DNA of 64,000 nucleotides from the NCBI GenBank assembly GCA_030737835.1, contig CM060847.1, forward strand, positions 11,856,704-11,920,703, in the 5' to 3' direction. The notes under the pieces are model-generated. The model did not search any database. It had not been told where the DNA came from and was given only the letters and a program-made list of their open reading frames with translations. The position numbers were made by a program, and so were the translations under genes. Within the stretch, counting starts at the first letter, position 1. Each line of letters opens with the position of its first letter. Positions 3,501 to 54,059 of this stretch are shown here, piece by piece. This stretch comes from Acorus gramineus. Taxonomy: Eukaryota > Streptophyta > Magnoliopsida > Acorales > Acoraceae.

Positions 3501-5709
3501 TTCTGTGGATCAATTGTTGTTTTAATAAAATAATGTCAAACAAGGATTAATACTTTAAATGAATGAATGATGTGTCACAAGAATATTGTGACAATGTTGG
3601 AATATTTTCATGAAATACATGGTACTGTCAACATCTGAATTCATACAATAAACAAGTCTTAAAGTAAAATGGCTTATAGAAATAAAGAGAATTGAGGACA
3701 ACTTGATACTTACAGGCTTACCAAGTTTGATAGAAGACTTATCTGATCACTGATATAACCTTTCAGACCTTGACTTCCAAGATCCCTATTGAGGATAAAC
3801 ACTTCATCAATTTAGGAACTAACAATGACAGTCAAAAAGGCCCATGCATGCAAGTGCCTGCAATGTTAAAAATGGCATTGGAACAACACTTACAATGCTA
3901 TTTTAATACATCAAATGGCTTTCACAAACCACGATTAAATCTAAAAAATTAATTTATTCCCACTAAAAATTATATACATACATTCCTCATCAGAGTATTT
4001 CTTGTTTTACAACACAAAAGTGGCACCCAGTAAACATTATCTCACTTTGTCGGATATGTTCCATGAATATAAACCCCGTGTTTTTTTTTATGTATGCCTG
4101 TCTAATTCTTCTATTAAAATCATCTCATGAAATAAACATGAAAATGCATGTTATCCATTTAATAAACTTGCTCAAAATGGCATATATCATCAAACACAAA
4201 ACCAGCAAAGGAAAGAAGTTGTGCACTCACAATTGAGTAACAACAAGGCTTCCTGATCCATCTGGATTAGGATGGCAGGTGACCCCCTCCCAGGCATCCC
4301 AAGTCGAGGGTGCACACGGATCACCATTCCAACCCATTCTATCAGGAATCCGGAGTGAATCCTTCAGCGCCCTCATCGCAGCCACTGCGATAAAACCAAA
4401 AACAAAAAAAGACACCAATTTTCAACCCAAAGGTCAAGAACCAATGCAACACCGAAAAAGATGCAACCTTTACACTCATTTCCAAAATGCACCTTGACTA
4501 GGAACAGTCGAGAAATCCAGCGGCACCATCGCATAATTCTCAAGCCCACTGATCAACGGCGGGCCAACCACCGATACGAACTTCACGCTGAGCGACGTGG
4601 TGTTCAGCTTCTCCACCACGTAATGCCAATCGAACGCCGAGAACGCCCCGACCTCCTTATACACATCAATCCTCCTCACATTCAACCCATCCACATAGAC
4701 ATCAAACACCCTCTGCCCTGCCTCCACCACCATCGGATCGATCTCCGCGAAGTGGAACCAGATCAAGTAATCAAGCCTAGTATCCACATTCAAGAAGTAC
4801 TCAATAATCCCTCCCCCCGCCCTGCTCTCCGTGGTGACCGCGGTCTGGTAAAGCCGCATCGGGAAGTAATTGCTCGGCCGTCCAGCATTAGCAATCACAT
4901 TCGTGGTGGACAAAACCCTAACCTTCGAATTGGCGTTCCGGGACGCGGCGTCCGACTGCCACACCCGTCCGAACGGATCGACATCATTGCTAAACCCCGG
5001 TCCGAACGTGTTCGATCCGCAGGTGAACCTCCCGTAGTTGACGAGCACGAGATCGGATCCGGTGGAGGAGGAATCGTAGGAGAGAGGATCGACCTGGACG
5101 AGCTCGAGAGAGGCGATGACGGGCGGATCCGTGGCTATGCTGTAGAAGCAGACGTCGGCGACGCCGTCTTTGACGAAGGCGAAGAGATCGGAGTAGGCGC
5201 CGTCCTTGGCGACGGTCTCGGGCCAGGGGGAGCGCCAGCTGAAGACGAGGGTGCCCTCGACGGAGACGTCGAAGCTCGGGGAGCGGAGCTTGCTGTCGTA
5301 GTTGTCGTAGACGGTGAAGGTCCGCAGGTAGTAGCGGCCGGAGGGGAGGGAGGGGAGGGAGTAGCAGTTCTTCTTGCCGTAGGAGTTGGGGGGGAAGAAG
5401 CGGAGGGTGCGCTCTTGGGGTTGAGGGAAGTTGTGGGGCTCGGAGACGAGGCCGGGAGCGCCGCCGGTGTAGAAGCGGTCGGAGAGCCAGGTGCGGTTGA
5501 GGTCGCTGGTGAAGTTGTTGAGGCCGCCGCAGTCGATCAGGTACGAAGTGGCTTTGAAAACACAGAGAAGAAGACAATGTGGTTAGAAGAAGTGGAGATT
5601 GTGAGAGAGAGATGGAGAGTTGGGGATACTTACAGAAGGGGAAGGGAGGGGGTTGGGAGGAGATGAGGGGGAGGAGGAGGAGGAGGAGAGAGAGTGAGAG
5701 GAGTGACAT
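575..5709 (-). CDS. RLP4: Malectin-like/LRR receptor-like protein, RLP4 type, 3' end outside window
   Basis: I read seven exons on the minus strand: 5709-5634, 5551-4493, 4384-4231, 3785-3714, 2182-2114, 1371-1303 and 652-575, about 525 residues, all joined by GT..AG in a consistent frame. Residues 1-19 are a signal peptide (MSLLSLSLLLLLLPLISSQ). About 28-378 form a malectin-like double domain (starts SYLIDCGG; contains IWFHFAEID). Next comes the linker with WNGDPC that precedes the repeats in this family, then LRRs, one per exon, in 69-72 nt phase-2 exons (DLGSQGLKGYI, NLSSNSLRGNLP, DLSNNQLSGAIP, LLNNNELEGQVP). The last visible exon ends at VPEKLYSVGVHGGVI, a stretch typical of RLP4-like proteins just before the GLCG and membrane segment, which must lie left of base 1. 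The ATG at 5709 was preferred to one at 5814 because it starts the signal peptide directly. GC is very high in exon 2 and falls downstream. The family is a kinase-less plasma-membrane receptor; the ligand is unknown. Confidence 0.88.
2862..2915 (-). mobile_element. Tail-only retroinsertion flanked by a 14 bp target duplication
   Basis: The sequence cactcattgtttag occurs at 2862-2875 and again at 2902-2915. Between them are only 18 T and gaagaaaa. Read on the minus strand the insert is TTTTCTTC followed by A18, which matches the 3' end of the SINE copy in LPP A (ends ATTCTTC then A-tail, near 18097-18112). It is therefore best read as an extremely 5'-truncated SINE insertion in an intron of the RLP4-type gene. 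Confidence 0.7.
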
Positions 5710-16468: not shown

Positions 16469-19379
16469 TCACTGCCTCCTCCCAGTTTCCATATCATCTA
16501 GAATTGGACCGGTTTCTCGTTCACCGATCTCCAGCGAGCCTCCGTTGCGCTCGGACGAACCATAACGTGTATCGACCTCCATCGGCCTTGGTGTAAGATG
16601 ATTCGAAGAGCTATGCGTCTCCGCAAGTGCATGAAAGAATGCATGTGGTCCCCAACCTGCATCATGTCCAAGAGGATCAGAAGAAGAAAACCCAGGAAAC
16701 AAATGAACTGTATTATCAAAGAGGGCATAGATACAGTCATTCCTGCAGTCCTTTCTCCTAACCTAATATTTACTAGGTCAAGGTAATACAGAAAGATATG
16801 CATTCAATTTATTCTAGTATTTTACTTCATTGTTTTTGTAAAGGTATGTGCTTCATTAAATAATGTAAAAAATTTCAAAACATGTTGGGGGGCTGCAAAA
16901 GGGACTGCAAGAAACCGTCCTTAACATTTTCCTATTTAAACACATTCGGTTTATCTCATCAAATTCAACAGCAATATTGAAAAACATTTGGTTTGATGTG
17001 GACAATGGGCAATTGTATTGTGTAGTTAGGAATAGAATATGATAGCACAGATATTATTGCCCATAATGATGATCCTCACGAGATGTTTAGACTTTAAATG
17101 TCCGAATAATTATGGTTAAATTCATCAGAGAGATCCTTGGTGTGATGGACTAGGATTAATTTAATAGACTAAGAGTAATGTTCCATGTAAGATATTATAA
17201 CCAGAGAATTTCAGTAATAAATAGTGGATTAGAAATCTATTGCAAAAAAGATTACTGCTTTTGTATCAGATAACCTGAGAGTAATCTAAATTTTCACGCC
17301 AATAGAACTAATTTTCAAATTGTATTCGAATTGCAACAACAATCAAGCAGTGTGTGAAGAAGAAATGATTGCAGAACTAAATAAAAAATAAAAAATCTTT
17401 GCGTAGAACATGGAATAGAAGGGTAGAAAACAAACCATCTGTGGAATATGGGGGTGGGAAAAATTGAAGATAGCAAAATGAGGCAACTGTCAGTCCTGCA
17501 TAACACATTGGGAAACAGTAAATATGTTGCAAAAAAAGAGAGAAAAGGTAACTATCTGCACAGTAATCAAATAAACAGACCTAAAAGGCCTCCTGCAAAT
17601 ACATCTTGCCAGTGATGCCAATAATCATCCACTCGAGATATTCCAACAAGAGCTGCAACAAGAAGGGGAAGGAATACAATGCAAAGTTTTGCGACATGGC
17701 CACTGCGGTCAAAGGCTTTAATTTTCCCTGCTATGTACCACGCAGCAAAACCAAGACCTGCAAAAGACCCTGCGGAATGGACAACAGACAAGGTTACCTA
17801 GATATTTTCTGTTCTTCCCTATCCTGCATCAATGAGTATCTGATCTCAATCAGAGGGATTCAAATCACCACTCCCAAGTATAGGGGTAAATGAAGTTACT
17901 ATAAGATAACTGTCTTCAAAAATTAAAGGTTTTCCCCCTAAACGAAATCATGCAATAACCAGGGCAATTTTTGTGTGTGTGTGTGTGTGAAAGTCCAGGC
18001 TCAAAAAGGTTTCAAGGGAAGATGCCACATGAAAGACATCTAAATGTTGATGGTGGGAATGATCACTGGGAAAGAGAAGAGATGAGCCTTTTTTTTTTTT
18101 TTGAAGAATGGTGCTCCCCATCAAAGTCCCTTGACCTCTTTCGCAGAGGTGAGAGGTGTTTACCGACCTAACCAAAGCTCTGTTGTCATTTTTCTTTCTT
18201 TTCTAATTGTTAGTGCAGTAAACCTTCTAAATAGACCAGCGACAGTCTATGAGCTTGCTTTTTACTCAAACTTGGGTTATTATGTGCATAGGAAAGGGCA
18301 CATCCAAGGGTGACAGGGATAATAGCAGTTAGTATCGGCACCACACTGGATCCAAACTCCAGTTTATAATGTTTGGCAAAAGCTTTAGTACATAACCTGG
18401 GAAAACTCAAACCAGAGATGTAACAAATTTCATGACACGCAAATGTACCAAAAGCCTAGACATATTAGACATTCAAAACCAGTAATAAAATTATCACTAA
18501 AAGCAGTGCCAGATGGTAAACAAATATGATTGAGCTACTTACATGAAGTATGACCACTTGGAAAACTCTTGTGCCCTTCCTTGATCACACTCTTCACTCC
18601 ATGACACACGACATTTCCTGTTACATTATTGTAAACCTGCCAATGTTGCAAGCTATGGTCTGTAATCTTACTATAGTATAAATAATAATATGCTATAAAC
18701 TAGAATGACAAAATAAGACAAAAAAAAATAAAGAAATGTTATCATGATAATACACACCGCCTTTCCATCTGGGAAACATCGCCAGAAGAAATCGGGCCGA
18801 GGTCGGCCAACGGCATCCTTGATCGCATCCGTTATGACTCCAGTAATAAGTACAGAGAATAGAAGCCCTATGTTTGCATGAGAAATCGTTATCAAGTGTT
18901 ACAGATGAACTCATTTCTTTAAGAAGTTGTGATAACTCAATCAACTGAAGACTAAAGGAAAGAAGATGTACCCAATATGGCATGATGCAGGTCATACACA
19001 TCCCTTCTGAAGATGTATATCACGATAAAGATTGCAATAGGCAACAATATTCCAATCACCTTGACATAAATAAAACCACTATTATTTCATTGCACTTTTA
19101 AAAGACATCAAAAGTCTCTCTTATTTTATATCACGATACAAATGCAACACCAGGACCAGAACATACCGGAACAGCCCAAAATGGCACTGTGTTGCTTTTC
19201 AATGGATATTTCAGGTCTGTCATCATGTCCTGTCCTACAAACCGGTAAAATGGATGTATGACATTCAATATGACCTCTATTACTGCAAGAAGAATGAGTA
19301 TAATCCAGTCATGCATATGGAATCTAGCCACTTTGAATCCATGTGATTTTATGGTGTGAGCTCCCAACTGAATTGGCAT
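16469..19379 (-). CDS. LPP: Lipid phosphate phosphatase A (PAP2 family)
   Basis: Seven coding exons on the minus strand: 19379-19167 (exon opens at acceptor 19385), 19059-18972, 18867-18758, 18636-18543, 17769-17581, 17495-17436, 16656-16469. They join in frame to 313 residues. The enzyme removes phosphate from phosphatidate and related lipid phosphates in membranes. The N-terminus [20 protein letters not shown] matches plant LPPs of the LPP1/LPP2 type. Six membrane spans are predicted. All three PAP2 motifs are intact: K117..R124-P125 (KDAVGRPRP), PSGH at 163-166, and SR..H..D at 213-224 ([12 protein letters not shown]). The C-terminal 60 residues diverge from B and C. For the sixth coding exon I chose acceptor 17495, giving [19 protein letters not shown], because it preserves the family's length. 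B and C next door share every intron position and phase. Confidence 0.93.
17972..17989. repeat. (TG)9 microsatellite
   Basis: Nine TG units in the intron between the fourth and fifth coding exons of LPP A. Confidence 0.9.
18097..18180 (-). mobile_element. SINE copy in an intron of LPP A
   Basis: Read on the minus strand it runs gagctttgg, gtcggtaaacacctct, gaggtcaaggga, ggggagcacc, attcttc and an A-tail. The same order of blocks occurs on the plus strand at 30860-30951. The conserved gtcgg..agcacct and ggtcaagggatcaaaccc-like blocks resemble degenerate A and B boxes of a tRNA-derived SINE. It is oriented with the LPP A gene. No target duplication was found. Confidence 0.55.
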
Positions 19380-25475: not shown

Positions 25476-25691
25476 CAAAAACAAACAGCTTCCCATATAT
25501 ACTTCTTAATATTTATAATGTCACTAACTTCCACAAAATCAAATCATGTGTACAGCAAACACTAAAAAGAAAATTTGTAAGAGGCAACAAACATGAACAA
25601 GTGTAATCACCAGATATTACAAAAAAAAAAAAAGATCATCATGGCTGTAGTTAAAACTTAAAACGACGAATTACAAGGCTGAATATACAAA

Positions 25692-28600
25692 TTAGACGTC
25701 ATGATAACATATGTTACTTCCAGCTTCAAGATCCTCAAGTGTGGAGTTGGAGTTCTTAGGTTGTTGGAGCGTTACGACAGTCAATGCCCTGTCTGCATTG
25801 AAGCTGTTTGCAGTGTTTGCTTGGCGAATGCTACCTCCAGTCTCCTCCAACAAGCGAAAATACGTGTAAGTTCCCCAACCTAAGCACCAAAACAACCATA
25901 AAACCATCAGTGAATATCTTATGATGAATCAACTGTCATCAGAGGGGGTCTAATAAATTCCTCATTTGCAATTTCTTTTGTATGTACCACGAGACAACAA
26001 TACTAGTACGCTTGTTGCAGTTATCAGCTTCACATGGATTGTAATCAAGACCATCATTAGTTTCATCAAAACCAGATTTAGTGTCAGAAGGAATTAGATT
26101 ATGCAATGATACGCGTAGTTATTGACCACATCGTCATGGTCCTAGTTGCTAGTTTACCCAACAAATCTAAGGTGATAATGTGCAACAAAAGGTTTCCTGA
26201 TTTGCTCGGCGATTTTTTGAGAGCAGAATATACTATATGCAGAGGAGACAAGTAAAAAAATTGGCACAGTTCTTCTTGATTTGAATAAAACATGCCACCT
26301 TTCACAATATGAGATATCCAGACAATTATACAAGAACCATTTCTTATCAGCAAATCAGTGCTTGTGACACTACAGAACAAGGAAAATGTCAGATATAATA
26401 CATTATTAAATGTTTTCTCATGAACAAAAGGGGGGAGAGAATTGATTACTGTAGACAACATTGAAATTATATTTTAATACGTCTTCCCTCTTGAAATTGA
26501 TCAACATTCTCTAAACATTAGACAAAAAATACAGCAATTTTTTTTTTATCTATTTCCACTTTGCATAGCTTTTTCCCTAACATTAGTATGACACTGCCAC
26601 TCCCAACTCCACAGAATGGAGAGATTTGACACATTCACAGCTGATGTCAAATATTGTTAAACCTATGAATACATCATTGTTTCTAGGATTAAATATAGGT
26701 ATGCTATGTTGTCAAATTTTCGGTAAATGTAAGTTCCTTTAAGTTGTTTATTAGTAAGATTTGCTAAAAAGTGACAAAGAATTACCAAATATAAATAAGC
26801 AGGAAATAGTGGAAGGTATTAGGTACTTATCCCTCGTATATGGCTCCAAGCAACAAGGTTACACCAGTAAATATTGGACATTTGCTGGTGTCATCATTTG
26901 TTTTACTTCGTGACGGGTAAGCATAAGTAGATTAAATAAAATCACATTTCAAGATTTTACTCGATTTCTGGTGACATAAAATTGTCCTAAGACATGGACA
27001 ATAAAATCACTTCTTTCTTTCTGTAAAATTAAGAATACACAAATGGACAAAAAACAATATATACGAGCGAGAATCACAATGCACAGATTATATTCATGGA
27101 TAACTCCCTTACGTGCATGTAAAGAAATAAAGAATCAACATTCTTCTTCTCTCAAATTTTGTGCAATTTGGGTGACACACAAGAATCAACAATTTAATAG
27201 ACTTTCTTGAGCATACATGAATTCTTGTACGGAGTCACATATCTCACTAGTTGAAAAACTTAATTAAAGAAACTTCATTATTCATATCAATGCAGATAAA
27301 CTTCGATTCTCTATGTACTCCTGTAGCCACATACATATAAATGAAGATGTATGTAGAATGTAGTCATGCAAAAGAAATGGTCTAAACAAGTACAACAATT
27401 TCTTATTCTCCATGTAAAATAGATGTTCGGTGTGCCCGAAGAAGAAAAAAAAACAAAGCACTTCACAATGGCTTCATTAAAAATAGGTTGATGCATAAAC
27501 TGTAAAGTCACAGTATCAAAACTAGGCGAAAATGAATAAATCGTGCAACTTCCATAGCTCATATAAACAAGTTAACTGGACATATACATTGATTTTCAAG
27601 GCCTGGCATGGATGATCTAAAACACATGCATTTATCTTCGATGAGTAGAGTGTAAGGAAGTAGATCAAAGCATTGCTTAATATGTATTATTCAATTACAT
27701 GGATAAACACACTAAAGGCGGTCAACATCGTCACATCACATTGCTTACCATCTTCATGATAGGGAGCAGGGAAGAACTGCAGATAGCAAAACGTGGCGAC
27801 CACGACGCCTGAAAGGGAACATCATAAGGGGGAGGGGGGATTCAACATCAAGGTTTAAACAAAATAATCAACACTTATCTAACCATACACAATGACCAAT
27901 CACTGCTACAAACCTAGGAGGCCTCCAGCAAATACATCCTCCCAATGGTGCCAGTAGTCATTCACCTGTGATATACCAACAAGAGCTGCGACAAGCAGTG
28001 GAAGAAAGAGGAGGCAGAGTTTACTGACATGACCCTTGTTATCAAATACTTTCGTCTTCCCTGACAAATATAATGCGAGAAAACCAAGGCCAGCAAAAGA
28101 CCCTGCATAATGAAAGTTAAAATGTCAGATTTTGTTCCTTCATGTGGAATACTAAAAAAACATTTCTGAATATTGTTTACAGCCCAACATTGCATTAGTC
28201 TGATCCTATAAATACTTTGAAATGTTATCCGAATAAATGACACACCTCATATGTAACAAGTAAAAACAAAACTTGAGCTGAACTACAAAAGGGAAAAATG
28301 TGATCCTAGACTTTCTAATATAAATACTCATCCACTTAAAATTGCTATGTTGGAGCTTGAATGAAAGACTTTTCCCCTGTTTGGGGTGCAGAATAAGGGT
28401 CAGATAAGGTATGAAGATTCAAAAAACTCAATTGGTTTGGAAGAATAAAACCCGATAACTATGCTCAGATAAATTAGTATTGACAAAAATTCCAAGGGGA
28501 GGCTGGAATAACCTATCCATGCCTCCTCCAATCCAAAAAAGGACCAACGACGAAATTAATGATTACAAAATAAGAAAAGTGCAACCAAACAGAAACTATC

Positions 28601-29640
28601 CCAATAGGCTATTGGCGATAGCTATATATATCCCTGAATACCAAACTATCCCTGATAAGACCATGTTGCACCCCAAACAGGGGCTTTGTGACTAACAAGA
28701 AAATGAATCATTTATGCCCCTTACATGAAGTATGACCACTTGGAAAGCTCTTATGTCCCTCCCTTATGAAGCTTGCCACTCCCTTACAAATGACATTTCC
28801 TGTCACTTGATCATATACCTGCCAATAATGCACTTATCAGATGGGCTGAGCTAGGCTTTAAGGTAAAGAAGTTATACCATTAATAAAATCCTATCTGAAT
28901 AGAACTCACATCTTTTCCATCAGGAAAACAACGCCAGAAAAAGTCTGGCCGTGGTCGTCCAACTGCATCCTTGATTGCATCCGTTGTAACTCCAGTTATC
29001 AGCACAGAAAAAAAGAGGCCTATTGTTGCACAAGGTTCACATAACAAGCTCATAAATGTTTTTTATATGTTAAATGTTCATATTTAATAATTATACAATG
29101 AAAATATAGTTACCTAGTATTGAATGGTGCAAATCAAAGACGTCTCTCCTAAGATAATAGAAGACAAGAAAAATGGCAATTGGCAACAATACTGCAATCA
29201 TCTAAGAAAATCACGCGGTTAAAGTCAAAATTGGTATTTGCTTAATGTAAAATTTCATATCTGACATGGAGGAATTTAGTTAAATATAAACTCCTCAATA
29301 AGCATCAGATATTCAGATGTTCACAATAATCAGATGGCTATAGAGTGAATCAATTATCATGAAAAATTGGTTGTAATAATTATATAGGACCACAGATGGC
29401 TGGTTATGGTGTGATGAAACCTACCGCAACAACCCAAATTGGAACTGTGTTTCTTTGCATTGGATATTTTAAATCACTCATCATATCCTTTCCCACAAAA
29501 CGATAGAATGGATCGATAATATTCAAAATGACCTCCACAATGATGAGTAGTGTAAGCGAGAACCAATCATGCATATGTGTCCTTGCCAGCTGAATTCCAT
29601 GAGTTCTTATTGTGTGCACACCCAGCTGAACTTCTCTCAT
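25692..29640 (-). CDS. LPP: Lipid phosphate phosphatase B, motif 3 Arg replaced by Gln
   Basis: Seven coding exons, minus strand: 29640-29425, 29201-29114, 29019-28910, 28818-28725, 28102-27914, 27808-27749, 25879-25692. They join to 314 residues with the same phases as A and C. Motif 1 (KDAVGRPRP) and motif 2 (PSGH) are intact. Motif 3 reads [12 protein letters not shown]: Gln215, encoded at 27966-27968, replaces the Arg that A and C keep. Mutating this Arg in mammalian LPP1 abolishes nearly all activity, so B is probably inactive or much weakened. B also departs where A and C agree: DPFYRF for [14 protein letters not shown] for [15 protein letters not shown] for VPFWAVP, and GVTTD for GVITD. 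Its C-terminus ends [11 protein letters not shown] where C ends EAGRR. The reading frame is fully open and the splice sites are good, so it may still be expressed. Tandem sister of C. Confidence 0.92.
28377..28684. mobile_element. MITE in an intron of LPP B, shared with LPP C
   Basis: The ends are cccctgtttggggtgca and its inverted counterpart tgcaccccaaacagggg, a near-perfect 17 bp terminal inverted repeat. The homologous intron of C holds the same element at 37319-37650 with decayed ends, so it inserted before the tandem duplication. A flanking ctttt/ctttg pair is the only target duplication candidate. The small ORF at 28480-28695 lies mostly inside it. Confidence 0.8.
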
Positions 29641-30859
29641 ACTGACCTGGAGAAACATATGCAAATAAAATCAGCGTGAATTTGTTAGCCAGATTCAACT
29701 CAAATGGAAGGAAAATGGAGTTACACAACTATAATTCAATAAGAAGGTAGATGCACCATCATCACACACCCTTTGATATGTTAAACATAGTTCATAATAA
29801 ATCATCTAATTCAAGTATCCAAATACATAACAAAATACAGGGGTAAACCAGAATTGCCTGGCCCAATCATGATAAAAAAAAATTAAAAAAAGGAACAAGA
29901 CTTCATTAGAATAGAGTGAAGTAAAATGTGAGAAATTATTGGATTGAGAAGGCAACAAATATGTGCTTCTCTCTACTATCAAAATGACATACTAGAATAG
30001 AGTGAAGTGTTAAGATATTTGACTGACATCAAAATCAGAAATGTGGCAACTGTGACATAAGATAAGGTAAATGAGATACTTTCCAACATTATATTAAAGA
30101 ATAAATGCAAACAATTTAGCAGAAATATCTTCATTCAATGTGCTTAGCACTTTCTAATCACAGTAATCAAATAACATCCTCATCGATCCTCATTATTGAA
30201 CCTAAACATATCATATATGGGTTAAAGACTATACAAGCAACGTAAAATGGTATGATAATTACTTAACACAAGAATCGTCAAGATGGTCTCACAGCCTGAG
30301 TATATTATATATAAATTATATCCCAATGAACACTCTCAGCTTATGATATGTTTGTGTAACTAAACCCCCATAAGGCTAGTATTACTACCCAACCAAGTTT
30401 CCTAATATTAATGCTTTTAACGGAATTGCATAATTGAGCTCAGCCGTCCAGTTCCAAACTGAAATGTTAATACAATTCACCTTCTTTTCTCACACCCTTT
30501 GTACAACTTGTGACCATGAAAAAAAAATCCCCAATCATGTTATGTCCTTTATAATACCAAGCCAACTTTCCTTCTGAATTCAAACCATATACTTCAAGTA
30601 TACTTGAAGGAACACCAGCATAAATAGAGATTGAAGCAATGTTCTACAGACTACATATTATTTAATCCACAAATTCAAAAAATGTGAAACACCAACTCTT
30701 TACAATCTTACACTAAAAAATGAACTTGTAATCAAATCATTTCAACAAACTAAACTTCCTATAAAAAAAAGCACACCCAATTAGCACTCTTGTACTACTA
30801 CTCTCACCCATGATCAGAAGAGTAATACATGCCTTCTTAAACAACATGTAAACTGCAAA

Positions 30860-30951
30860 CCGAGCTTTGGGAAAGTCGGCTAGCACCTCCTCTCCATAAT
30901 GGAGGTCAAGGGATCAAACCCTTGGGGCACCAATCTTTGGAAAAAAAAAAA
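30860..30951 (+). mobile_element. SINE insertion in the 5' UTR intron of LPP B
   Basis: Blocks gagctttggg, gtcggctagcacct, ggaggtcaagggatcaaacc and ggggcaccaat are followed by a 12-base A-tail. The matching place in unit 2 (about 39511-39531) has uninterrupted aacaacatgtaaaccagtga, an empty site. In B this sequence is split, with acatgtaaac before and acatgtgaac after the insert, giving an approximate 10 bp target duplication. It is antisense to LPP B. Confidence 0.8.
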
Positions 30952-31183
30952 ACATGTGAACCATTGATCACAAGATAACCAACTTGTACTACATCATTGG
31001 GAAAAAAAGGCTCCTTGTAGCCTCAAGTAGAGAAATTCAAAAAAAAATAATGCACCACTATCAGTCTACACACAAAAAACTGAAAAATATAAAAACATTC
31101 AAACAAAGAAGCGAGAACACATACAAAGAAACAGACCATGTTATGTTCAGAGGACAAGAAACTCATTCAATATTGATACATAC

Positions 31184-31480
31184 CTTATCTTGAGAAGAAT
31201 CAATTGCAGACAAAATGGACAGTTAGAAAAAACAAAAAGATGAAAAATGTTGGTTGGTCCTGGGCACTTCTTTCTGGAATAAAAGTGAAAGCAGAGTGAG
31301 AGAAAGAGAGTGTGGTTGAGTTTCAAATGGGGAAGGGCTATTCCCACCATCCTCATTTTTTGGGGTGTGGGTTTGAAAAACTGAGATGGAGTGAGGGAGG
31401 GAAGGGGAGTAGAGGGTGGGTGGGGTAGTGGTTTTGAAAAAGAGGGTGGGGGGAATATCCCCTCCCAACAATTAAACATC
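31184..31480 (-). promoter_or_regulatory. Probable 5' UTR exon and core promoter of LPP B
   Basis: The first coding exon of B begins at an acceptor six bases before the ATG (29646). A donor, aag|gtatgt, lies at 31184 on the minus strand and its counterpart in C at 39746. The region above is CT-rich on the sense strand, as plant leaders are. The first intron is about 1.5 kb. Confidence 0.5.
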
Positions 31481-32069: not shown

Positions 32070-32130
32070 TTTTTTAAAAAATATCTACAATTTCTCTGTG
32101 TGTATAAGAGATATTGGAATAATGAAAGAG

Positions 32131-32282
32131 GCCACGTAAGCATTCACTTGAATACGTGGCACTCTCTGAGAATTTTCGTCGGGCCTGCGTGGCACTGAAT
32201 GGTTTGAGTTCCAAGAACACTATCTGTGGGCCTGGTGTCCCAACAGTTGTTTCGGCCCATGGGGCTACATTGTATCGTGCCT
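32131..32282 (-). promoter_or_regulatory. Conserved upstream block of LPP B with paired ACGTGGC sites
   Basis: gccacgta (32131-32138) and its exact inverse tacgtggc (32153-32160) are separated by 14 bases. A third gcgtggca and a site II-like ggcccat follow. The corresponding block upstream of LPP C (42644-42785) preserves both half-sites and the 14-base spacing while the surrounding DNA has changed a great deal. ACGTGGC is the core bound by ABA-response bZIP factors in plants. That role here is inferred. Confidence 0.55.
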
Positions 32283-33613: not shown

Positions 33614-34663
33614 TTTATTTTATTGATGGTTTGTTCTTGAAGATTTATTAACTATTCATATTATATTATTCAATGGGTTGTAGGGATATGGGTGGGGTTG
33701 ATTTATTTTATTATTAAAAAATATTCACTTGGATTAAAGGGTAAAACATCATATTATTTTATTTTTTTATTTTCGATGGTGGATTTTTCATAAAGAATTA
33801 TTAACATATCATATTATTTTTTAATTTTATTTCCCCGGACATCCAGTGTAGGTGAAGATTTATTTCACTAATCAACATATTTCATTAAATAAAATATATA
33901 AATTCAAAAAGTCAAAACATGTATAAATCACAAAAAAGTTGTAAAAAAATTATCCTAACATTTTCTATCGATATTATAAACATAAAAACAAATCCTCAAA
34001 ACACTTGAGAATTATAGCAAATATTGCCCATAAGCTGCTCTTAACATTAACCTGAAAGATTATATACACAAAATATATATATATCACCAAAACCAATGTA
34101 ATGCATGTAGACAGTCACTGTTTTTTTCTTTATAATAAGTTTCTTTTTGACGAGGACTATTGTGTTAACATGACATAGTCAGGGAACATTACACCTAAGA
34201 TGTCAATTGGAAAAGAAAAAAAACAAAGGTCTCCTGCATTGGGTGCCTCAAAAGTCTTTGTTCTATATATTCCTTCTCTGGTATCTTAACTTAGGCCAGG
34301 TAGGACATAAATCAATATTATTTAATGATAATTCTGTCACTCACTTTTAGTCCCTTATTCAAGTTGCATGCAGTACTGAGTCCATGAAAGCTGTTCTGGC
34401 TGTTGAATGTATTTGTCTTATTCTGACAAAAACAAACAGCTCCCATATATACTTGTAAATAATGTTTGTGATATCACTAATTTGCACAAAATCAAATCAT
34501 GTGTACAGCAAACACTAAAAAGAAAATTTGTAGGTGGCAACGAACATCAACAAGTGTAATCACCAGATATTGCAAAAAAAAAAAAAAAAAGATCATCATG
34601 GTTGTAGTTAAAACGACGAATTACAAGGCTGAATATACAAACCAGAAGACATGATATCATATG

Positions 34664-37600
34664 TTACCTCCTCCCAGCTTCAAGATCCTCAAGTATGGAG
34701 TTAGAGTCCTGAGGTTGTTGGCGTGTTGCGACAGTCGATGTCCTGTCTGCATTGAAGCTGTTAGCAGTGTTTGCTTGGTGAATGCTACCTCCAGTCTCCT
34801 CCAACATGCGAAAATACGCGTAAGTTCCCCAACCTAAGCACCAAAACAACCATAAAACCATCAGTGGATATCTTATGATGAATCAACTGTCATGAGAGGG
34901 GGGGTCTAATAAATTCATCATTCACAACTCTTTTGTAAGTACCACGAGACAACAATGCTAGTACGCTTGATGCAGTTATCAACTTCACATGGATTGTAAT
35001 CAAGACCATCATTAGTTTCATCAAAACAAGAGTTAGTATATGGAGGAATTAGATTATGCAATGATACACGTAGTAGTTGACCACATCATTATGGTCCTAG
35101 TTGCTAGTTTACCCAACAAATCTAAGGTGATAATGCGCAACAAAAGGATTCCTGATTTGCTCAGCGATTTTCTGAGAGCAGAATATACTATATGCAGAGG
35201 AGACAAGTAAAAAAATTGGCACAGCTGTTCTTGATTTGAATAAAACATGCCACCTTTCACAATATGAGATATCCAGACAATTATCCAAGAACCATTTCTT
35301 ATCAGACTAGATGCAAATCAGTGCTTGTAACACTACAGAACAAGGAAAAATATAAGATATTATACATTATTAAATGTTTTCTCATGAACAAAACGGGAGA
35401 GAGAACTGATTACTGTGGACATATTTTTATAGAGAACATTGAAATTACATTTTAATACATCTACCATCTCGAAATTGGTCGACATTCTCTAAACATTGGA
35501 CAACATATACATCAATTTTTTTTTGTCCAATTCTACTTTGCATAACTTATTCCCTAATCCCAACTCCACAGAGGAGAGATTTACCACATGCACATATGAT
35601 GTCAAATATTGTTAAACCTATGAATACATCATTGTTTCTGGGACTACATATAGGTATGCTATGTTGTACAATTTTCGGTAAATGCAAGTTCCTTAAAGTT
35701 GTTTATTTAGTAAGATTTGACAAAGAGTGACAGAATTACCAAATCTAAATAAGCAGGAAACAGTGGAAGGCATAGGTACTTATCCCTCATATATGGCTCC
35801 AAGCAGTTAGTCACACCAGTAAATATTAACATTTGAGTGTCATCATTTGTTTTACTTCGTGACAGGTAATCCTAAGTAGATTAAAGAAAATCACATTTCA
35901 AGAATTTCCTCAATTTCTAGTGACATTCATGTCTTAGAACACTATTGAGCGTTGTTCTTCATCTTTCTTTCTATAAAATTAAGAATACACAAATGGACTA
36001 AAAACAATATATATGAGTGTAAATCACAATGCACCAAATTATATTCATGGATAATTCCCTTACATGCATATAAAGAATCAACATTCTTCTTCCCTTTTTG
36101 TTTGAAAGAAGTGTGAGGTGCACCAAATTTTGTTCAATTTGGATGACACACAAGGATCAACAATTTAATTGACTCTTTTTTGAGCATACATGAATTCTTG
36201 TACAGAATCACATATCTGGCTAATTGAAAAATGTAATAGAAGATACTTCATTATTCATGTTAATGTGAACAGACTTCGGTTCTCTATGTACTCCTGTAGC
36301 CACATACAAATGAAGATGTATGTATAATGTAGTCATGCAAAAGAGATGGTCAAAACAAGTAAAACAATTTCTTATTCTCCATGAAAAACAAATGTTAGGT
36401 GTGCCCAAAGTGGCTTCATTTAAAATAGGTTGATGCATAAACTGTAAAGTCACTGTATTAAAAACTAGGCGACAATGGATAAATCATGCAACTTCTATAG
36501 ATCATATAACTGGACATATACTTTGATTTCAAGGCATGGCATGGATGATCTAAAACTTATGCATTTTATCTTCGATGAGTAGAGGTGTAAGGATGTAAAT
36601 CAAAGCATTGCTTATTATGTATAATTCAATTACATAGATAAGCACACTGAAGGCGGTCAACAATAAGAATCAATGATCGTCGCATCACATTGCTTACCAT
36701 TTTCATGATAGGGAGCAGGGAAGAACTGCAGATAGCAAAGCGTGGCAACCACGATGCCTGAAAGAGAACATCAAAAGGAGGGGGGGGGGTGTTAATATCA
36801 AGTTTTAAACATAATAATCAACACTTACCTAACTATATACAATGATCAATCATTGTTACAAACCTAGGAGACCTCCAGCAAATACATCTTCCCAGTGGTG
36901 CCAATAGTCATTCACCCGTGATATACCAACAAGAGCTGCGACAAGCAGTGGAAGAAAGACGAGGCAGAGCTTACTGACATGACCTTTGTGATCAAATACT
37001 TTTGTCTTCCCTGACAAATATAATGCAAGAAAACCAAGGCCTGCAAAACACCCTGCATAACGAAGCTCAAACGATCAGGTTCTATTTCTTCATCATGTGA
37101 AATACTAAAACTTTCTGAATGTTTTTTACGGCCCAAAATTGCACTAGTTTGCTCCTATAAATACTTTGAAATGTTATCCGAATAATTGATACACCTCATA
37201 GGTAACAAGTAAAAACAAAACTTGAGCTGAACAACAGAAGGGAAAAAGGTGATCCTAGACTTTCTAATATAAATACCTATCCACTTAAAATTGCTATGTT
37301 GGAGTAATAGAATACTTTTCCCAGTTTGGGGTGTGGAATAAGGGTCGGATAAGGCAGGAACATTCAAAAACCTTGTTTGAACCAAGCAAAAAAAAAAAAA
37401 AATTTGTTTGATTCGGAAGAATAAAATCTAATAAATATGTTCGGATAAATTAGTATTAGTCCTACAGTAATTCTAAGGGGAGACTAAAATCACCTATACT
37501 TGCCTTCTGCAATCCAAAAAATGACTAAAGACAAAAATAATGATTACAAAATAAGAAAAATGCAACCAAACAAAAACTATCCCGATAGCTATCTATCCCA

Positions 37601-38624
37601 ATATACCACTCTTATCTCTGATAAGACTATGTCGCACCCCAAACAACAGCTTATGACTTAAAAAAAATTGAATCAACTATGTGCCCCTTACATGAAGTAT
37701 GACCACTTGGAAAGCTCTTATGTCCCTCCCTTATGAAACTTGGCACTCCCTTACAAATGACATTTCCCGTCACTAGATCATATACCTGTCCAGAATATGT
37801 ATTAACAATGCACTTATCAGATGAATCGAGCTAGGCTTTACGATAAAGAAATTATATCATTGATAAAATTCTAACAACTGAATAGAACTCACATCTTTTC
37901 CATCAGGAAAACAACGCCAGAAAAAGTCTGGCCGTGGTCGTCCAACTGCATCCTTGATTGCATCCGTTATAACTCCAGTTATCAGCACAGAAAAAAGGAG
38001 GCCTATTGTTGCATAAAGTTCACATAACAAGCTCATAAATGCTTTTTATATGTTAAGTGTTCATATTTTTAATAATTATACAATGAAAATATAGTTACCT
38101 AGTAATGAATGGTGCAAATCAAAGACGTCTCTCCTAAGATAATAGAAGACAAGCAAAATGGCAATTGGCAACAATACTGCAATAACCTAAGAAAATCATG
38201 CGGTTAAAGTCAGAATTGGTATTTGCCTAATGTAAAATTTTATATCTGACACGGAGGAATTTAGTTAAATATAAACTCCTCAATAAGCATCAGATATTCA
38301 GATGTTCACAATAATCAGATGGCTATAGAGTGAATCAATTATCATGAAAAATTGGTTGTAATTAATATATAAGACCACAGATGCTGGTTATGGTGTGATG
38401 AAACCTACCGGAACAGCCCAAAATGGAACCGTGTTGTTTTGCATTGGATATTTTAAATCAGTCATCATATCCTCTCCCACAAAACGATAGAATGGATGGA
38501 TAATATTCAAAATGACCTCCACAATGATGAGTAGTATAAGAATGAACCAATCATGCATATGTGTCCTTGCCAGCTGAATTCCATGAGTTCTTATTGTGTG
38601 CACACCCAGCTGAACTTCTCTCAT
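34664..38624 (-). CDS. LPP: Lipid phosphate phosphatase C (PAP2 family)
   Basis: Seven coding exons on the minus strand: 38624-38409, 38186-38099, 38002-37893, 37785-37692, 37052-36864, 36757-36698, 34833-34664, giving 308 residues. The start [20 protein letters not shown] is shared with B. All three PAP2 motifs are intact: [13 protein letters not shown], and [12 protein letters not shown] with Arg215. Six membrane spans are predicted, with the active site on the side set by the loops between spans 3-4 and 4-5. C agrees with A at most positions where B differs, so C looks like the functional member of the tandem pair. Its own changes are small (HTSWCFAG for HTSWSFAG, ATLCYL for ATFCYL). The protein ends EDLEAGRR. 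The family dephosphorylates phosphatidate and related lipids; in Arabidopsis LPP2 is tied to ABA signalling. Confidence 0.94.
37319..37650. mobile_element. MITE in an intron of LPP C, shared with LPP B
   Basis: The same element as 28377-28684, in the same intron and orientation. Its terminal repeats have decayed (cccagtttggggtgtgg and cgcaccccaaacaacag). An additional A14 run is present near 37388. Confidence 0.75.
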
Positions 38625-39745
38625 ACCGACCTGGGGAGAAGAATTTGTTAGCCAGATTCAACTCAAATGGAAGGAAAATTGAGTTACACAACTATAAGCT
38701 AAATAAAAGGTAGATGCACCATCATCACACACTTTGAAATGTTAAACATAGTTCATAATTCAAGTATCCAAAGACATTACAAAATATAAGGGTAACACAG
38801 AATTGCCTGGCTAATCATGATAAATTAAAAAAAAAAGGCATCAAGACTTCATCAAAACAATTTTTTAAGTTAAAGTAAAATGTGAGAAATTATTGGATTG
38901 ATAGGGAAACAAATATGTGCGTCTCTCTACTATCAAAATGACATATTAGAATAGAGTAAAGTGTTAAGATATTTGACTGACATCAATATCAGAAATGTCG
39001 CAAGTGCGGACATAAGAAAAGGTAAATGAAATACTTTCCAACATTATATTAAAGAATAAATGCTAATAATTCATCAGAAATATCTTCATTCAATGTAACA
39101 CTCTCTAATCACAGTAATCAAAAAAATCTTCATCAATCCTCATTATTGTACAACTTGTGTCCATGTAAAAAATTTCCCAAACCATGTTATGGGCTTTATA
39201 ATACCAAGCCATCTTTCTTTCTGAATTCAAACCATATACTTGAAGTACACTTTAAGGAACCTTAAATCCAGTCTCCAAAAACATAATCCAAGCAATCTCT
39301 ACATACTACATATTGAAAATAAACCAAATATTCAAAAAATGTCAAACATCAACTTTTATACAATCTTACACTGAAAACGAACTTGTCATCAAATCATTTC
39401 AAGTTTTCAACAAACTAAACTTCCTATAAAAAAAAAAAAAGTTATACCCAATCAGCATTCTTGTACTCTCCTTCCCAACCCAATATCAGGAGAGTAATAT
39501 ATGTCATCTTAAACAACATGTAAACCAGTGATCACAAGATACTCATCTTGTACTACATCATTGAAAAAAATTGCCTCCTTGTGGAGTCATGTAGAGAAAT
39601 TCAAAAAAATAATGCACCACTATCTGTCTCCACACAAAAAACTGAACAAAATAAAAACATTCAAACAAAGAAGGGAGAACATATACAAAGAAACAGACCA
39701 TGTTATGTACAGAGGATAAGAAACTCATTCAATATTGATACAAAC

Positions 39746-39965
39746 CTTATCTTGAAAAGAATCAATTGCAGACAAAATGGACAGTTAGAAGAAAAACAAA
39801 AATAAAAACATATAGAGCCAAAGCAGATGAAAAAATATTGGTTGGTCTTTGGCACTTCTTTTTGAAAGAAAAGTGAAAGCAAGGACAGACAGAGAGAATG
39901 TGGTTGAGTTTCAAATGGGGAATTGTTGGCGCTGGCCCGCAGGACTCGCAGAACAGTTTAAACAT
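39746..39965 (-). promoter_or_regulatory. Probable 5' UTR exon and core promoter of LPP C
   Basis: The donor aag|gtttgt at 39746 corresponds to 31184 in B. Compared with B, about 105 bases (31336-31455 in B) are missing just upstream of gagtttcaaatgggg, replaced by a short unrelated GC-rich stretch. The leader or core promoter of the two genes therefore differs. Confidence 0.45.
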
Positions 39966-42463: not shown

Positions 42464-42643
42464 TGTAATAATTTACAATGAGATTTGGAAACTTAAAAAT
42501 AAATCTAAATATCACGTAGACCTAAAAATAATTCTAAAGTTCTTTTAAGGACCCGAATTAGTTTTTTTTTTTTTTTAAATATACACATATTTCTATCATA
42601 ATTGTGTGTTTGAGAGAGAATTCGCTGTAGAAGGACGGAGGAT

Positions 42644-42785
42644 GCCACGTAGGCATTCACTTGGTTACGTGGCATTCCCTGAGCATCCACGTTGTGCCTG
42701 CGTGGCACTGAATAGTTGGAGTTCCATGAACGCTAGCTGTGGGCTTGGTATCCCTTGTCGGCCCATGGGCCTACTCCGTACCATG
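42644..42785 (-). promoter_or_regulatory. Conserved upstream block of LPP C with paired ACGTGGC sites
   Basis: gccacgta (42644-42651) and tacgtggc (42666-42673) are separated by 14 bases exactly as upstream of B. The block continues with tgcgtggcactgaat and cggcccatggg. It now lies about 2.7 kb above the leader of C because of the transposons at 40345-42463. Confidence 0.55.
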
Positions 42786-51310: not shown

Positions 51311-52123
51311 ATCTTTTTCCTAAAACATTATCGCATGTATTCACCTAAAGATTTTTAAAGGAAAAATATTACGGACGATCCACGTATTTTTTAATCTTTT
51401 ATAAATAATAAATTTTATTTAATTAGACATATATTTTTTTAAAAAAATACATATACAATTTATGAGATATTGTATGGACCCATTCAATTAAAAGCATGAA
51501 AAAAAATTAAAGAGATATATATATCTCATTTGAGGCCGTTTGAACATGCAATGAGGCAAACATAAAAGTAGCGTCTGCATTTCAATATTAAAACCGATGT
51601 TTAAAGGCATATTTTTTTGTTAAATGACTATAAGGGTTTATTTAACTGACATGTTGAGTTAAGATTACGTGAATCATGGAATTCCAAATTCAAGTGGATT
51701 AAAATTAAAACTCTATCAACCTGTTTAATAAGAAACATGATTCAGAAAAATTCACTGTTCCAATCATGTGTTTGATAATATATAAATTATAATATAAAAA
51801 ATATATATTTTTAAACATAATACATATACACATACATATGCATATATAAGGAGAGATGAAAAGTCAAAGTAAAAATGATTTTTTTAAAATCCATCTAGAT
51901 AAAGATGGAGGAATATCACATCTTAATTGAGTTTTTCAATCCAAATATATATATATATAGATTGGTGTAAAATAGACTTATATAGCAAGAGTACATGTCC
52001 ATGTAAAAAAATTGCAATAAAAATACACAAAACATAGTGACATACAGCCTACAATCCGAGTCCTTAAAACCCCTCGATCTCATAAAAGCAGCCGCAAACG
52101 GCAGGTGCGAGTCGTGCGACACC
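51311..52123 (+). promoter_or_regulatory. Upstream region and leader of the PB1 gene
   Basis: AT-rich up to about 52040, with a (TA) run at 51945-51959. GC rises from about 52080, which marks the leader. An in-frame ATG at 52037 would add 29 residues of no known family character, so the leader probably includes it. Confidence 0.35.
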
Positions 52124-54059
52124 ATGGACCCCACTCCTCCTCCTCCCTCGTCCACCTACGCCGACTCCCTCTCCTCCTCCCCCCACTCCTCCTGGGACGA
52201 ACCCCCCCAAGCCCCTCCTCCGCCTTCCCCTCCCAAGCCCCTCCTCCGCCTCATGTGCAGCTACGGCGGCCACATCGTCCCCCGCCCCCACGACAAGTCC
52301 CTCTGCTACCTCGGCGGCGACACCCGGATCGTCGTCGTCGACCGCTGCTCCTCCCTCTCCGACCTCTCCCTCAAGCTCTCCAAGTCCCTCCTCCACGGCC
52401 GCCATGACTTCTCCCTCAAGTACCAGCTCCCCAACGAGGACCTCGACTCCCTCATCTCCCTCGCCACCGACGAGGACCTCGACAACATGATCGACGAGTA
52501 CGATCGCACCCTCAACCACTCCTCCTCCCGCCTCCGCCTCTTCCTCTTCCCCTCCAACCCCGACTCCTCCTCCTTAAAGTCCGAGTCTTGGTTCCTCAAC
52601 AGCAACTCCTCCAAGTCCGACTCCTCCTCCACCTCCGTCGACTGCCTCCTCCCCGGCTTCAATTCGCTCGATCTGAAGCAGACGGGGGACTCGCCGATGG
52701 TGATGGAGACCGGATCGTCTTTCGGGTCGGCCTCGTCGGGGCTGTCGAATCTTTCGCCGATTAGGGTTAGACCGGCGATGGCGGAGACCGGGGTCGAGGA
52801 TTACTTCACTCGGATGGGGTTGCAGATGGCGGAGGAGCATCGCCCTCCGCCGCCTCCGATGGTGGTGGGTGGGACGCCGTCGTCGTCGATCTCTCCGACG
52901 GAGAACCCTAGTAGGGTTTTCTCTGACTATGAGAGATCGGTTGATCAGGTCCGGAAGTGTCACTCGCCGCCGCCGGTCACGCCGCCGACGCAGGTGAAAT
53001 CGGGGAATCTTGAATTTCCGGCTCCGGATTCCTCCATCAATAGGTACTCTGCGTTTCTTGATTGATTTGCCAAAATTGGTGATGAAATGAATCAAATTAT
53101 TCTAATTTTCATGCCAATTGAAAACACGAACCTTTTCATTTCCTGGTATTTCGATTAATTGATTAAAGGATTGATTTCATTCATTATAATTCACCAAATT
53201 GTTCTGTGGTGATGAATTTAGGCACCAATTGCTTGAATTGTTTAACATACTGTATTAAATGGTATCCATGGTTTTGAAATTGAAGGGTGTTCTTTATGTA
53301 TTCAGGCCTGGATTCCATGAAGAGCAGGTCACTTCCATGGGTTCAAGAGAAAGGACTTCCCCAGCTGCCGTCGCCGCCACCGTCATTGCGGCCTCCGCAA
53401 ACACAATCCCCGATCCGAAACGGGAAATTCCACCCGACCCATATCGGATTCCAATACAAATACAAGATCCAAATTATGGGTTGCCCATCCAACCAGAGCA
53501 GCAGCAGCAGCTGCTGCAGCAGCCACCAGTCCCACAGTTCATCCACACAGGACCTCCTCCACATTACATACCCCACCATGCCCCTGTCACCTCTTACTAC
53601 CATCCGGTCCACCCCCAACACCAGCACCAGCCGCTCGATCAGCCGACCTACCCCGTCTACTACGTCCCCGTTCGCCCCCCTTACAACCTTGCCATGCCTC
53701 CCAACTTAGCTGAAGTCCCTCACAACAAACCCGCCACCATTGCCTCCTATAAAGAACCCACCACTTACTACCCGCCTCGACCGATCCCACCCAGACCTGA
53801 AATGGGTTCAAGTCTCTACAGAACTGCTGCTGCTGCCGCCGCCGCCGCTGCTCAGGCACCACCATCAACAGGGCAATTCATGTACAGTAATCAACTCCAA
53901 AACATGTCCCACTTAGCTTCCAATTTTGGATACGAGCAGGTTTACTATACTCCAGGCTCTTTGCCTCCTCAGTATCAGACGGTCACCTCGGCCATGATGA
54001 TGTCGGACGCCATCGCATTGCAGCCATCGGATCCAAAGCAGAATAGAACCTCCGCATAG
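52124..54059 (+). CDS. PB1 (Phox/Bem1p) domain protein
   Basis: Two exons, 52124-53043 and 53306-54059, joined by AG|GTAC..TTCAG|G into 557 residues (the join reads SSINRPGFHEEQ). After a Pro/Ser-rich N-terminus, residues about 40-143 form a PB1 domain: RLMCSYGGHIVPRP with the family's early basic patch, GGDTRIVVVDR, then the acidic OPCA-type segment YQLPNEDLDSLISLATDEDL. PB1 domains mediate head-to-tail protein pairing. The remainder is low-complexity: Ser-rich 145-190, a Gln run, a His/Pro/Tyr-rich stretch, an Ala run and a conserved-looking C-terminus with GYEQVYYTPG. This architecture matches the plant octicosapeptide/Phox/Bem1p group of unknown function. I chose the ATG at 52124 because it starts the MDPTPPPP sequence usual in the group. 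GC is very high at the 5' end and falls with distance. Confidence 0.9.

Follow-up and report, generated by a model that had tools for sequence, protein, structure and literature searches.

When one of several tandem LPP genes has glutamine where motif 3 of the PAP2 active site has arginine, is the copy a decaying duplicate, a retained protein without catalysis, an enzyme with a narrower choice of substrates, or an artefact of a single base? The question is posed by a 64,000-nucleotide stretch of the Acorus gramineus genome (the window), which holds three such genes, A, B and C, all on the minus strand. A first-pass annotation had proposed that the middle gene, B, may be a full-length, membrane-embedded but inactive enzyme. 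We discuss below how far the sequence of B and its relatives, together with published mutants of distant homologues, agrees with that proposal.

Gene models of the three copies, built from exon boundaries with GT-AG introns and spliced in silico, each have seven coding exons, and run from 16469 to 19379 in A (313 amino acids), from 25692 to 29640 in B (314 amino acids) and from 34664 to 38624 in C (308 amino acids). Read along the minus strand, B begins with coding exon 1 (29425-29640, with the start codon) and continues with exons 2 (29114-29201), 3 (28910-29019), 4 (28725-28818), 5 (27914-28102, between an AG acceptor and a GT donor), 6 (27749-27808) and 7 (25692-25879). Motif 1 (K-x6-RP, here KDAVGRPRP, from B residue 118 in exon 3) and motif 2 (PSGH, from B residue 164 in exon 4) are intact in A, B and C, and the PAP2 domain (Pfam PF01569) scores 103.6 bits in B, 108.7 in C and 104.8 in A against a cut-off of 27.2. 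Six membrane spans are presumed for B, given its 90-98% exon-by-exon nucleotide identity to C. The tandem unit around B (25476-31334, minus strand) is homologous to 34427-39922 around C by blastn, with 85% identity over the main 4.9-kb piece and two further pieces upstream at 79% and 84%; the homology spans about 5.9 kb of B. It stops at 31334 and resumes at 32128-32268 (C 42641-42774); some 130 bases directly 5′ of the B leader region (31335-31470) have no counterpart in C, a short matching stretch follows this insert in the alignment, and no inverted repeats were found within it. Elsewhere in the window are reading frames for a malectin-like domain protein (4476-5582, minus strand), ribosomal protein L26 (12239-12781, plus strand) and a PB1-domain protein (52007-53065, plus strand), and no tRNA genes were reported within it.

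One further close copy, D, occurs in the 398-Mb assembly (contig C6), where its exons 1-6 were modelled; its intron 4 (locus L038, 1516-6854) measures 5.3 kb, as against 622 bases in B, 639 in C and about 770 in A. All 26 matches from a protein search of the genome with B were exons of A, B, C or D, and a Pfam search of the same genome gave at least eight matches, namely five exons of A, B or C, one of D, and two distant PAP2 genes (L001, SRVYLGYH; L002, SRVLLGRH), both single open frames with arginine in motif 3, as read by eye. The assembly itself seems to represent 11 chromosomes, as suggested by the 11 of its 21 contigs seen that are 17-33 Mb long, the other 10 being about 140 kb at most.

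The changed residue of B lies in the stretch 27914-28102 that the first-pass annotation singled out, which is exactly coding exon 5 of the spliced model. Positions 27966-27968 read CTG on the plus strand and hence CAG on the coding strand, placing glutamine at codon 215 of the 314-codon frame spliced in silico (R215Q), where the equivalent codon specifies arginine in A (CGA, codon 214), C (CGG, codon 215) and D (CGA). Motif 3, SR-x5-H-x3-D, thus begins SQ in B and retains its histidine and aspartate. Both the codons that had been given for A, B and C and the step from the CGG of C to CAG, one G-to-A transition inside a CpG, are upheld by the minus-strand reading and the spliced models. The 27-mer around codon 215 has one exact occurrence in the window and one more with two mismatches, in C, while the exon 5-6 stretch of B has one exact place in the whole assembly, followed by C at 91% and A at 75%. 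Synonymous differences between B and C at codons 219, 222 and 224 make a misplaced C read unlikely at this point. Because its motif 3 arginine is replaced, we file B as an LPP-derived paralogue and not as an active LPP.

Arginine stands opposite Gln215 in all five matched solved sequences (phospholipid phosphatases 1, 2 and 3, with variants). A contig scan with C, A and D confirmed one bacterial locus among 135 candidate stretches, and the genome concerned served as entry to a background set of 60 genomes of one phylum, 49 of which have a PAP2 match. In the 30 loci read from this set (L060 and L061-L089, the best match from each of 30 genomes), a pattern leaving the residue open located motif 3 in 26, with arginine in 26 of 26; the remaining four are weaker evidence, their motif having been found only by a pattern that requires arginine. 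The five solved sequences, and the mouse LPP1 mutant R217K, which is called catalytically inactive (PMC7564803, PMC6735510), agree with the earlier identification of the residue as the phosphate-site arginine of motif 3, and in a review the C3 arginine is assigned a part in substrate coordination (PMC7564803, section 4). No tested mutant with glutamine at this position was found in the sources on PAP2/LPP mutants. In Escherichia coli PgpB, R201A is reported to retain about 25% of its activity when the substrate is the pyrophosphate lipid C55-PP but about 0.3% with PGP, and its authors argue that pyrophosphate hydrolysis depends less on this arginine (PMC7413402). Plant LPPs are described as active on both phosphatidate and diacylglycerol pyrophosphate (DGPP) (PMC8286584). 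By the PgpB and LPP1 mutants, loss of the arginine should cripple hydrolysis of monophosphates and may spare part of that of diphosphates; the description of B as inactive therefore seems sound for phosphatidate, on the precedent of LPP1 R217K, but may overstate the case for diphosphate substrates.

Of the frame and splice sites of B, which the first-pass annotation took to be whole, the splice sites are so and the frame is so in part. Neither a premature stop nor the loss of a splice site was found in the B models, and the body of the frame is open, but the last exon has lost four bases beside codon 306 (near 25722, a position taken by hand from the model), which removes the ancestral stop (GRR-stop) and changes the C-terminus; that A ends GRRQ-stop supports a loss in B. 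The lesions of B are two, one active-site loss and one terminal deletion of four bases. Between B and C, the introns (3004 bases in B) show 42 indels and the coding sequence one, where 13.2 would be expected (P 3e-5), so the reading frame of the pair was guarded. For B alone, the estimated chance that its body would be free of stops and frameshifts is about 0.003 under lifelong neutrality and about 0.04 if neutrality began with the conversion discussed below, though both figures use intron indel rates that are probably too high for exons, and the true chances are likely larger.

Divergence between B and C is uneven. It amounts to 12 of 316 sites (about 4%) in introns 1-2 and to 290 of 2582 aligned sites (11%) in introns 3-6 (Fisher p 9e-6), a contrast that suggests gene conversion between the two genes, probably over the low-divergence tract at about 28930-29700 (minus strand; limits approximate, by eye from blastn). 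If plant DNA changes at 7e-9 per site per year, the B/C duplication would date to about 9 million years ago and the conversion to about 3 million. The exons are uneven too, with 17 nonsynonymous and 2 synonymous differences in exons 1-3 against 9 and 12 in exons 4-6 (Fisher p 0.003). Gln215 is not alone in B, a point absent from the first-pass annotation: besides the terminal deletion, ten replacements are specific to B at sites where A, C and D agree (I28S, T55S, F68I, A70V, P72A, V73M, L104F, I113T, V201L and R215Q), and the same rule gives three in C (F83L, F239L and D252N; two-sided binomial p 0.09, or p 0.04 for exons 1-3 alone, with 8 against 1). Ten more differing sites are partly resolved, one leaning to B, three to C and six undecided, and inclusion of the leaning sites brings the replacements to 11 in B and 6 in C; codons with synonymous change only number three in each. 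Codon 28 differs between B and C at all three bases, and six codons out of a run of eleven (63, 65, 68, 70, 72 and 73) are changed between them, five by replacement, a clustering within exons 1 and 2 (29425-29640, 29114-29201).

The first-pass annotation had also named the dN/dS of B against C as a check. Fitted to exons 1-6 of A, B, C and D, a codon model puts dN/dS at 0.76 on the B branch, 0.52 on C and 0.12 on the remaining branches. The fit improves when B and C are raised together (p 5e-6), yet B does not differ from C (p 0.82), nor either from 1 (B p 0.74, C p 0.60), so these values do not single out B as relaxed. With every branch free, the estimates are 0.85 for B and 0.45 for C. A model that raises B alone (2.08) was set aside, since it ties C to the background branches and its fit is poorer than that of the model with both raised. 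In exons 4-6, dN/dS is 0.14 for B (p 0.16 against 1), 1.06 for C (p 0.99 against 1) and 0.29 for the two pooled, below 1 (p 0.006), where the B tests, as for exons 1-6, cover the whole branch and do not isolate the time after the arginine was lost. For exons 1-3, B comes out above 1 (p 0.04, nominal, as one of several tests), and B and C taken together give p 0.07. A dN/dS of 20.1, returned by some models, is the upper bound of the fit and is read simply as above 1. Measured against the introns of the tract, exons 1-3 show no significant difference in nonsynonymous rate (p 0.45), whereas the rate in exons 4-6 is far below that of introns 3-6 (p 2e-5). On the simplest account, exons 4-6 preserve the entire history of the pair, for the most part under constraint, and exons 1-3 only the time after conversion, with B drifting, although there could also have been selection for change in the N-terminal half of B.

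We consider it somewhat more probable than all else together that B is a young, catalytically crippled tandem duplicate of C, drifting towards loss. B would have arisen as a young tandem copy of C, the pair would have been kept under constraint at the protein level for much of its life, and B would more recently have become free to drift, acquiring R215Q, losing its original C-terminus and accumulating other replacements at conserved sites. Its protein, if made, would be expected to enter membranes as before and to retain the catalytic histidines, yet to bind phosphatidate and other lipid monophosphates poorly, with a turnover only a small fraction of that of C; C and A would carry the function while B heads to loss. 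Codon 215 and its surroundings, the gene models and the uneven divergence are observations; the loss of activity we infer from mutants of distant homologues, and the order of events and absence of a selected role are likewise our inference. This reading draws support from the arginine shared by A, C, D, the five solved sequences and the 30 bacterial loci, from the excess of replacements in B over C, the raised dN/dS and the terminal deletion, from the contrast between exons 1-3 and 4-6 and the inactivity of LPP1 R217K, and from how improbable an intact body would be under lifelong neutrality. Several results pull the other way. Even with neutrality confined to recent times, a body still intact is somewhat unlikely. 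Against relaxation specific to B speak its exon 4-6 estimate, which equals the background while the high one belongs to C, the reduced imbalance once leaning sites are counted, and the equal numbers of synonymous-only codons. The estimate above 1 in exons 1-3, which could mean selection for change, goes against plain drift.

The first-pass suggestion was that B might bind lipid phosphates or pair with C. As a selected pseudoenzyme, B would be a stable membrane protein that does so without turnover, and its long membrane-protein frame, intact motifs 1 and 2, retained motif 3 histidine and aspartate, and the constraint on exons 4-6 in pooled B and C would all fit. There are precedents in that vertebrate PLPPRs, described as lacking LPA activity, still modulate LPA signalling (PMC9520309), and inactive LPP1 R217K lowered nuclear AP-1, a result its authors state without data (PMC6735510). 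Constraint is not demonstrable for B alone, however, and the protein carries a terminal frameshift. We found no evidence for binding or pairing; relaxed constraint explains the dN/dS of B and the frameshift at least as well, and we regard such a role as unlikely. We hold it marginally less likely still that B has been narrowed in substrate, sparing monophosphates such as phosphatidate while cleaving pyrophosphate lipids such as DGPP, and so making phosphatidate without destroying it. The activity that PgpB R201A keeps on C55-PP, the action of plant LPPs on both kinds of substrate and the other motif residues kept in B favour it, but B has glutamine and not alanine, the bacterial PgpB is distantly homologous, C55-PP and DGPP are different lipids, the mutant is reported to fail in vivo complementation without induction (PMC7413402), and there is no sign that selection retained B for such a purpose. 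The strong form of this proposal, in which loss of the motif 3 arginine would have turned B into a natural plant LPP selective for pyrophosphate lipids, converting DGPP to phosphatidate and leaving the latter in place, we judge improbable; if true, B would split two steps that its sister C performs together.

Two further explanations concern the base itself. Transitions at CpG sites are common polymorphisms, and R215Q, a single base of this class, might reflect a mistake in sequencing or assembly, or a rare allele, with B itself a normal enzyme; but R215Q stands alongside further changes at conserved sites and a second lesion in B, and the single-copy match of its exon 5-6 DNA and the nearby synonymous differences from C make this improbable as well. 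Alternatively, the change might act mainly on splicing, by creating a site CAG/GTGAAT at 27966 that competes with the weak exon 5 donor TAG/GTTTGT (27914) and yields a truncated RNA; use of this site would shorten exon 5 by 52 bases and throw the frame out. U1 duplex energies, a crude stand-in for splice-site strength, are -8.4 at the new site and -5.4 at the real donor, but CGG/GTGAAT at the same place in C already scores -7.7, so the change adds little, and we think this the most doubtful of the explanations considered.

If the crippled, drifting duplicate is the right description of B, its decay is the ordinary course for a duplicated gene. If B is expressed, the B/C pair offers a natural experiment on the role of the arginine and on the separability of mono- and diphosphate activities. 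Catalytically degenerate PAP2 relatives are already known in animals; a limited look at the literature brought up no plant LPP that lacks the arginine of motif 3, though a published case may exist. With plant LPPs, B has in common the PAP2 domain, the seven coding exons also present in A and C, and motifs 1 and 2, and it differs from them by the SQ in motif 3 and the altered C-terminus. Its closest experimental counterparts are the laboratory mutants LPP1 R217K and PgpB R201A, in which the same motif 3 arginine is replaced, but by lysine in an engineered protein in the former, where B has a natural glutamine, and by alanine in the latter. The vertebrate PLPPRs, or plasticity-related proteins, are LPP-related six-span proteins with changed catalytic residues (PMC9520309); they form a family of their own in which several critical residues are changed, and PLPPR1, for which R246E is listed among engineered C2/C3 changes, probably still has the C3 arginine, whereas B is one copy in which one motif residue, that arginine, has changed.
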